Source: Methanobacteriota archaeon (GTDB lineage Archaea > Halobacteriota > Methanosarcinia > Methanosarcinales > Methanosarcinaceae). Taken from it: a stretch of 44,772 bases of DNA. The position numbers and the translations under genes were made by a program. The notes under the pieces are model-generated. The model was given only the letters and a program-made list of their open reading frames with translations. It did no database searches and had not been told where the DNA came from. Below are positions 23,235-25,631 of the stretch, one piece after another (within the stretch, counting starts at the first letter, position 1; every line of letters starts with the position of its first letter). The stretch is from assembly GCA_016841625.1 (NCBI GenBank), contig JAENYU010000009.1, positions 21,109 through 65,880 on the forward strand, written 5' to 3'.

Positions 23235-23570
23235 ATAGCGAAGAGCCAGATTTTGGTTCTGCTTGCCTTTTTTGTTGTACAATGTTCAGCGATTGAAAAC
23301 AATGAAAATGACACATCAGAAATTGGCATTCCGGTATTTACGGATAAAGCGGACCAGATCAATCCGGCTATTTACGGGAATTATGTTCTGTGGATGGATT
23401 GGAGAGACGACAACTGGGACATCTACATGTTTGACATTGAATCCGGGACCGAATCGGCAGTGTGTACTGCTCCCGGTCATCAGGAATCTCCCGTTAAGGA
23501 GGGAAGCATAATTTATTGGGCAGATGGGAGGTCCGAACAAAAATACGTTTATCGGTCTTGCACAAACTAA
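23235..23570 (+). pseudogene. Broken beta-propeller (TolB-like) surface-protein gene, 5' fragment
   Basis: The fragment has a signal-like stretch (ILVLLAFFVVQCSA) and one and a half propeller repeats of the kind known from methanosarcinal surface proteins: DQINPAIYGNYVLWMDWRDD, then DIYMFDIESGTESAVCTAPG and the start of another blade ending YWADGRSEQ. The intact family has many more blades. The frame has no ATG: the position where one would be expected reads ATAGCG (23235), and TTG 23253 is the only start-like codon. After DGRSEQ the blade pattern is lost and the frame stops at 23570, against the convergent zinc-ribbon gene. Loss of both start and blades marks it as dead. Confidence 0.7.
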
Positions 23571-23581
23571 GAATCGCGCCT

Positions 23582-24277
23582 TCAATGTCGGTATATCCGG
23601 GGGTCTTCCGTTGCCCATTTCCTCACGGGCATATCGACGGCGTTTATGTGCTCTTCTTTTTCTGCCCTGAAGGACCTGTGCCCGCAGTGCCCGCACTGGT
23701 AGTAGCGGGTTATGGTGAGGTCCGATGTGGACGAGGAGGTCTTCAATTCCTTGATGTCAGGGTCTTTGAATTCGGTGTGGAGGGAGGTTTCCCGGCAGTG
23801 CTTACAGGGGGCCTTGAAGGGGTCTTTGTTTCTTTTTCCTTTCCGGGACTCGATGTTTTCCCGGCTTTCGGAACTGTCTTCACAGCCACAGTATCTACAT
23901 TTCCAGTGCCTGATTACGGAGACATAGTAGTAATCAGGAGTGCTGACTTCTTTTATGTCCGGTTGTTCCCTTTCTTCACAGGCGAACTCTTTTCCGCATT
24001 CCCTGCACCTTGCAGCTCTCACATAATCGGTGCTGAAGAGGAGCTCATGACCGCAGGCTGTGAAGGAGGAAAACAGGATTATGACTGCCAGGGACGCATA
24101 CAGCCTGCCCCCAGGGGAGGGTCCGAACAGGAAAAAGATCTTCTCAATCGAAAGGAGTGACATAATTGCAAGCATGAGACAGAGCATACCGCCAAGTTCC
24201 ACGGCACTTTCCCCGAGGAGCCTGATCAACGGGACTCTTTTTAATAAAGTCCGTTTTCGAATATCTCCTTTGTACAT
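23582..24277 (-). CDS. Membrane protein with two tandem zinc-ribbon modules, function unknown
   Basis: 231 residues from ATG 24277. Two hydrophobic segments (about 28-52 and 58-76: LGGMLCLMLAIMSLL, ASLAVIILFSSF) come before two homologous cytoplasmic or surface modules. Module one has CRECG and CRYCG on either side of PDIKEVSTPDYYYVSVIRHW. Module two has CKHC and CGHCG on either side of PDIKELKTSSSTSDLTITRYY. Each can bind one zinc with four cysteines. Their matching layout shows an internal duplication. ATG 24277 has no ribosome site. The same frame stays open for 79 codons further upstream, so this ATG may be internal; see the next entry. I cannot assign a function. Confidence 0.7.
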   Translation of the reverse strand: MYKGDIRKRTLLKRVPLIRLLGESAVELGGMLCLMLAIMSLLSIEKIFFLFGPSPGGRLYASLAVIILFSSFTACGHELLFSTDYVRAARCRECGKEFACEEREQPDIKEVSTPDYYYVSVIRHWKCRYCGCEDSSESRENIESRKGKRNKDPFKAPCKHCRETSLHTEFKDPDIKELKTSSSTSDLTITRYYQCGHCGHRSFRAEKEEHINAVDMPVRKWATEDPRIYRH

Positions 24278-24652
24278 AAGGGTGTAGCTTTCATCAGTAC
24301 ATCCTGAGGCGGATTCAACGGTGTATTCGGCAGTATTCCAGGCAGAATATTCAGCAGCATACCCGACCTTATGCTCGACAGCAGACCCTGCAACATCTTT
24401 TTCATTATTTTTAGAAACGTATTCACCAGTCTGTTCAAAAGTATATTCATCCGTCTGTTCAGAAGTATATACCTGACCTGCAGCCAGAGAGCCTTCAGCC
24501 CCCTTTTTCTGCTCTTCCTATTCCCTGGTGATTGTACTTCCTGAAAGCGTATTCAAAGCCTCCGAACCTCCATTTTTTCTGCAAAAGGGACAGGAATTCA
24601 GCTTTTTTCCGTTTTCAAAATGATAAAAAAAAGTCCCGGCTGGACAATAATA
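24278..24652 (-). pseudogene. Upstream in-frame extension of the zinc-ribbon gene across a UAG codon
   Basis: Reading upstream from ATG 24277 in the same frame gives 79 codons without a stop and without any ATG, GTG or TTG. They include an in-frame 24-bp repeat (YTSEQTDE, YTFEQTGE). Then a TAG stands at 24518-24520. Beyond it the frame again reads as protein for 44 codons and contains a classic zinc-ribbon start, YYCPAGTFFYHFENGKKLNS followed by CPFC, up to another TAG at 24653-24655 within a TATA-like stretch. So the gene once, or still, began near 24655. Either it is a pseudogene (lost start, amber mutation), or UAG is read as pyrrolysine. The TTG at 24554-24556 is the only start-like codon in this part. 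Confidence 0.6.
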
Positions 24653-25631
24653 CTATATAAAATATATTGCTCGCAAAGGATATAAACTGTACGAAATAAA
24701 TCGACTTCCGGCTTAAGGTAAAGGTAAAGGTAAAGGTAAAGAAAAAGGAAAATGCCACACAGGGGATGAACTGTACAATCAGGGAATTCCGCAGAAGAAT
24801 GAGTTCCACCAACTGCTCAGGATGCCTGCAAGAATAAGCAAAGACACCTGAACATCCCAGGTCCGGGATAAATACAAAGAATGGAAGCATACCCTGGATT
24901 GAGAACTTCGGAAAAGTCTGGAGCCTATAACTAATAACACGCAGTCATTGAGCTTCAAGTCCAAAAATTGGAATCTTGTGGAATTATTGGATTTATTAAC
25001 AATGATAAAATAAGCCAGATTTTGGGCAATTATGGACTTTTCAGACACTCCCGGATTATAGCATTGAACTAACCTTGCATAAATAATATAATCGTTACCA
25101 GTTCGTATTATTGTATCGCTCTGTCTAAATATTACACCTAAGTAAATATAAGATCTAAGAAAACAATCTAAGACTGTAGCTTGAGAGCTACAAACAAAGC
25201 AACAGGCAGAATACAGGACTAACAGGACAAGAATCAAAAAAGTGCAGAACTCAAGATGAAGAAAGTCAGCAATGACTTGGAAGTGGGGAATTACCAGGAA
25301 GCGGCACAAATCCCGCGGGTTGGGGAAAGAAAAAAGCAGTGTACTCCGGTACCTTGCTTTTGAAACCGTGGGGGTCACACCAAAAACAGGAATCTAAGCG
25401 AAAAACGGAAAATCACAGTGTCGCTCCGAGGGGATTTAGGAAAAATACCTGAATCCCTTATCCCATCTTATACAAAATGCTCTTTTTACAGGGTCTTCTT
25501 TTTAAGTAGGTCTCTTCTGTTAAGCCCAGCCTCTTTAACCTCGGTCTATTTTCCCGGCTCTGATTTGAAAGAATGAACTTATCAGGCGCAAAAAATTTCT
25601 GCGAACCCTCATGAAATCCTCCTGACGAGAA
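24653..25631. other. About 1 kb gene-poor region with coding remnants
   Basis: A GGTAAA hexamer is repeated four times at 24717-24741. From about 24746 the plus strand has a frame that reads protein-like (CHTGDELYNQGIPQKNEFHQ, later YKEWKHTLD) but is interrupted by TGA codons. Near 25300-25395 another frame reads GKEKSSVLRYLAFETVGVTP. These look like decayed genes that I cannot name. A 199-codon frame on the minus strand (24779-25378) runs opposite these and has poor composition, so it is not called. Confidence 0.4.

Follow-up and report, generated by a model that had tools for sequence, protein, structure and literature searches.

Does an in-frame UAG in a membrane zinc-ribbon gene of a Methanosarcinaceae archaeon encode pyrrolysine (Pyl), end a short upstream peptide, or betray a gene that has fallen into decay? 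The gene lies in what is referred to here as the window, i.e. the whole stretch of 44 772 nucleotides that was analysed (G000:C53:21109-65880), taken from a genome of 3.76 Mb. The explanation favoured here, with moderate confidence, is that the cell decodes the UAG as Pyl, probably only some of the time; the Pyl would be residue 13 of a 324-residue protein and would sit in a disordered tail. The TTG start, the presence of Pyl as a residue and the role of an adjacent RNA hairpin are what we infer; the observations from which this picture is drawn are set out below.

The gene, its frame and its product

Two TAGs, at 24518-24520 and 24653-24655, lie in the frame that closes at 23582 on the minus strand; both were correctly reported in a first-pass annotation of this DNA. 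The main elements of the gene, several of them shared with Methanosarcina sp. KYL-1, are as follows:

23582..24556, minus strand: proposed whole gene, with a TTG start and UAG as codon 13, 324 residues
23584-23582, minus strand: stop codon of the zinc-ribbon gene, the frame being read through the TAG
23585..24277, minus strand: conserved domain, hydrophobic helices followed by four CxxC pairs
24278..24479, minus strand: low-complexity, repeat-containing linker (24-nt units), with frame 0 translated and disorder predicted
24420-24470 in the window, 4836-4954 in L022 (KYL-1): the 24-nt linker repeats
24518..24520, minus strand: TAG in frame, codon 13, present in KYL-1 as well (L022:4710-4712)
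24554..24556, minus strand: TTG, proposed start, conserved in KYL-1 (L022:4674)

Over the 80 codons that separate the TAG at 24518-24520 from the ATG at 24277, there is no ATG, GTG or TTG in frame, and a standard gene finder would place the start wrongly, at that ATG. The TTG at 24554-24556, however, is in frame and lies 12 codons 5' of the UAG. The first-pass annotation had seen no start codon in the 79 codons upstream of the first ATG, which holds, but it did not mention this TTG. It had also suggested that the protein may be about 120 residues longer than a standard gene finder would predict. An extension over ATG 24277 is indeed likely, although with the TTG as start it would amount to 93 residues (12 + Pyl + 80).

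Judged by its sequence, the gene product is a member of an uncharacterised membrane zinc-ribbon family, which is often multi-copy within Methanosarcina genomes and in which 18 residues, six of them Cys, are invariant across 17 members. Searches of Pfam and NCBIfam with the window protein returned no family above cut-off and no match indicating homology to MtmB, MtbB or MttB, while searches of the PDB by sequence and by fold gave no confident structure match. AlphaFold predicts residues 1-87 to be disordered (pLDDT < 50), in keeping with a Pyl that is tolerated there. On the plus strand, a 105-codon ORF with a TTG start (window 23253-23570) lies next to the 3' end of the gene; it has no match in Pfam and, judged by eye, could be part of a larger secreted repeat protein.

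A conserved UAG in a gene under selection

A search of 112 family genomes and GTDB contigs revealed a sole close ortholog, in Methanosarcina sp. KYL-1 (L022:4674-5696, genome G123), with 84% identity over 231 aa, and many more distant relatives with ~25-46% identity. KYL-1, which according to database labels belongs to a different genus from the window genome, carries the identical TAG in an identical context, GGGAATAGGAAGAGCAGAAAAAG. Since two separate assemblies show the TAG, a sequencing error is unlikely, and conservation of the UAG in another species, which the first-pass annotation had proposed to look for, has been found and speaks for Pyl. These are the only two orthologs that have this leader, no further copy of the leader DNA having been found beyond KYL-1. 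In KYL-1, a CTG stands in place of ATG 24277, and ATG, GTG and TTG are absent from the UAG up to the conserved domain. The surrounding region is partly common to the two genomes and rearranged. The pS of the zinc-ribbon gene (0.31) is at the low end of that of other regional genes (0.31-0.74), so that transfer between lineages is possible but not required. Directly upstream of the point where homology to KYL-1 begins lies an array of the six-base repeat AAGGTA (6.3 copies, window 24715-24752).

Comparison of the two orthologs indicates that the zinc-ribbon gene is under purifying selection and clearly in use. The dN/dS ratio is 0.18 in the main domain (231 codons), 0.47 in the linker and 0.09 in the stretch from TTG to UAG, the last value resting on 4 changes only. 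All CxxC are retained and both copies are full length. These findings weigh heavily against a decaying gene, in which the start would have been lost, a stop gained and expression ended. Such a scenario draws on the lack of an ATG start, on 84% identity and a linker full of repeats, and on the damage to the leader in KYL-1. However, the same UAG in both species would make the supposed lesion older than a long period of purifying selection, and the missing ATG, in which the first-pass annotation had seen an argument for decay, is accounted for by a TTG start, the same as in relatives. Decay is therefore very improbable, and of the two possibilities between which that annotation had hesitated, it is the Pyl side that is favoured, the selection on the main domain being joined by the behaviour of the linker.

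The linker is built of 24-nt tandem units in both species, in which copy number differs but the frame is kept, the difference in length being a multiple of 3. In a codon-usage model trained on the window's own genome, the linker scores best in frame 0, with leads of 35 and 76 log units over the alternative frames in the window, and of 25 and 101 in KYL-1. That the linker is coding in both species, together with the CTG found in KYL-1 at the position of ATG 24277, implies that translation starts further upstream. It has to be considered whether the domain could instead be reached by a frameshift from an overlapping frame, or whether the two species might use different starts (ATG 24277 in the window), because the +1 frame is open for ~100 codons in both and the window does have this ATG. 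Nevertheless, frame 0 outscores the +1 frame by the lower of the above margins in each species, homology to relatives reaches upstream of ATG 24277, and no slippery site was seen by eye. Either possibility is accordingly quite improbable, and the overlapping +1 frame as the gene was rejected, codon usage being against it.

The start codon

Two further elements, both on the minus strand, adjoin the TTG:

24559..24563, minus strand: Shine-Dalgarno-like GGAGG, shared with KYL-1, just 2 nt away from the TTG
24553..24573, minus strand: mini-ORF encoding MEVRRL before its stop (MRVRRL in KYL-1), the TGA of which overlaps the TTG start (TTGA)

The TTG at 24554-24556 is likely, on sequence grounds, to be the start codon of the gene. 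Besides the GGAGG that is so close to it, a second GGAGG/GAGGG is found 10 nt away, and relatives L031-L035 and L085-L087 start at TTG, 30-50 codons ahead of a conserved YKGE motif. When a profile made from the N-termini of nine relatives was tried, gapless, in all frames, its maximum in the window was at TTG 24556 (rank 1 of 357 open positions), which is the sole start codon among 2117 in the window to reach that score; the equivalent TTG in KYL-1 ranks 2 of 471. Measured against linker composition, the uncorrected chance of such a match is ~0.003 in the window and ~0.005 in KYL-1. However, the homolog N-termini can be placed on the linker in two other ways with almost the same score, and MAFFT puts these short N-termini elsewhere in the linker, which makes the N-terminal homology at the TTG suggestive only. 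Between TTG and UAG, 3 of 4 substitutions are synonymous in frame 0, as against 2/4 and 0/4 in the other frames, while codon usage in this stretch of only 12 codons is ambiguous. In the gapless placement, the UAG falls on a variable position, where relatives have G, S, E or I, with the proviso that their N-termini are short and that MAFFT aligns them differently.

The overlap of the mini-ORF with the TTG would be compatible with translational coupling, which is possible. An ATG...TTGA arrangement resembling it is seen in relatives L032, L034 and L087.

The segment upstream of the start

Two features need to be distinguished upstream of the TTG:

24557..24652, minus strand: leader misread as a zinc ribbon, lacking homologs; in KYL-1, 14 nt are inserted and the Cys are lost
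24654..24661, minus strand: putative TATA element TTTATATA, also kept in KYL-1

The "clear zinc ribbon" that the first-pass annotation had seen here dissolves on inspection, as only one of the two knuckles is a complete CxxC, with CPAG in the other. In KYL-1, the leader has a 14-nt insertion that breaks the frame and the Cys of the supposed knuckles are absent, while the KYL-1 locus is the only place in the 112 family genomes where the 44-residue upstream segment has a homolog. An upstream zinc ribbon is therefore ruled out as a protein. That annotation had been right to place the second TAG in a TATA-like stretch: it adjoins TTTATATA and overlaps the end of this element, the conservation of which in KYL-1 suggests that the stretch around the TAG is a promoter. 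This overlap rules out TAG 24653-24655 as a Pyl codon. A TATA box is separated from the transcription start by a usual spacing, by which the first codons of the supposed zinc ribbon may even lie outside the transcript.

A hairpin after the UAG and a possible leader peptide

The segment that directly follows the UAG contains two elements conserved in KYL-1:

24480..24512, minus strand: RNA hairpin, beginning 5 nt after the UAG, with the same structure in KYL-1
24485..24487, minus strand: CTG, a candidate start if the UAG is a stop

The RNA after the UAG has predicted folding energies of -15.9 and -17.7 kcal/mol in the two species (z -2.7 and -2.9 for 45 nt relative to shuffles), whereas the equivalent segments of seven relatives without the UAG fold more weakly, reaching at best -8.8 kcal/mol. 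Three substitutions in the arms alter amino acids yet preserve pairing. As random placement of the same changes retains all pairs in 7-36% of trials, this covariation lends weak support to a function of the RNA and is no proof of it. A search of Rfam gave nothing relevant.

The main rival explanation is that the UAG is the true stop of a 12-codon leader peptide and that the main protein is made from a non-standard start, most likely CTG 24485-24487, the ribosome that ends at the UAG perhaps opening the hairpin in which this CTG would be hidden. The CTG is conserved in KYL-1, all 4 substitutions between the UAG and CTG 24487 are nonsynonymous, and codon usage, which favours frame 0 strongly after the CTG, shows no clear preference for it before. 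CTG starts are known elsewhere, since 5% of unannotated small ORFs in M. mazei begin with this codon (PMC11456600). Within the family, a KYL-1 paralog (L088, G123:C20) has at nt 625 a CTG in place of the TTG of L003-L005, with the N-terminus SLAE (GTTAGC-CTG-GCAGAG versus GGTAGC-TTG-GCTGAG in these relatives), so that members of this family may use CTG as a start. However, CTG 24485-24487 is inside the hairpin and is preceded by no conserved Shine-Dalgarno sequence (the window has AGGGGG there and KYL-1 AGAGAG). Moreover, a leader peptide would leave the conserved TTG, the GGAGG and the homolog-like N-terminus unexplained, and it demands that the peptide should end both in frame and at TAG, a rare stop. 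On balance, this explanation is possible although rather unlikely.

Decoding of UAG

Reading of the UAG as Pyl is supported by its conservation, by selection, by the lack of a standard start after the UAG in KYL-1 and by the presence of the Pyl machinery. Points that weigh against it are the restriction of the leader to two orthologs, the spacing of only 2 nt between the best GGAGG and the TTG, the nonsynonymous changes and ambiguous codon usage ahead of the CTG, and the shortness of the N-terminal homology. The window genome encodes tRNA-Pyl (pylT, anticodon CTA) and PylS, both of which the first-pass annotation had suggested looking for, and the ORFs that follow pylS are interpreted as pylB, pylC and pylD. 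It also has two copies of mtmB, both containing a single in-frame TAG; in KYL-1, PylS is present. In a sample of 396 kb of the window genome, TAG is a rare stop, ending 3.6% of long ORFs. The ORF interpreted as pylB (L100 3817-4869, contig C36 of the same genome) terminates in TAG, as pylB does in several Methanosarcina (PMC2933860), which means that UAG would be both stop and sense in this genome. In M. acetivorans, readthrough of a UAG placed in a reporter has an apparent efficiency of 20-30%, and Thg1 contains a non-essential Pyl (PMC2933860). A limited literature search found no recent work on ambiguous UAG decoding in that species.

In the Pyl explanation, translation would initiate at TTG 24556 and the UAG at codon 13 would be decoded by tRNA-Pyl, probably only in part, to give the 324-residue membrane zinc-ribbon protein, while the remaining translation would terminate at the UAG and yield a 12-residue peptide. 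Readthrough may be promoted by the hairpin that closely follows the UAG, and the amount of full-length protein would depend on Pyl supply. The UAG would have arisen in a variable, disordered N-terminal tail that tolerates Pyl and would then have been retained, as in M. acetivorans Thg1. A stronger version, in which UAG and hairpin form a regulatory switch that gives full-length protein only when Pyl-tRNA is plentiful, i.e. during growth on methylamines, is improbable. If true, it would mean that UAG recoding has been selected in two genera for control instead of chemistry.

Comparison with known systems and significance

The closest parallel is Thg1 of M. acetivorans, likewise from a methanogen that uses Pyl, with a role other than methylamine metabolism and a single in-frame UAG at a position that tolerates it (PMC2933860). 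In Thg1, however, the UAG is found in one species only and Pyl has been physically observed, whereas here the UAG is shared by two genera, would be the 13th codon of a gene for an uncharacterised membrane protein, and is predicted from sequence to encode Pyl. MtmB, MtbB and MttB likewise have an in-frame UAG in Methanosarcinaceae, but their Pyl is catalytic and conserved, they share no homology with the window protein, and the Pyl of the latter would sit in a disordered tail. The hairpin is reminiscent of the PYLIS stem-loop of mtmB in being directly 3' of a UAG, although it has no sequence match to PYLIS and no Rfam hit, and its fold differs from that of mtmB in its own genome; PYLIS is in any case dispensable for UAG translation (PMC2933860). 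UAG-interrupted frames like this one have been predicted before, by Have et al. (2013), whose main text describes clusters of such genes, some of them judged to be neutral UAG retentions, and does not appear to include the window gene (PMC3639795).

Apart from the methylamine methyltransferases, very few archaeal proteins have been physically shown to contain Pyl, and a 2010 review named a single one, Thg1 (PMC2933860). Retention of the UAG by a functional gene in two genera would bring another family into the Pyl proteins and would show that such codons can persist. The location of the UAG near the start would, in addition, permit testing whether expression of the gene is tied to Pyl supply.
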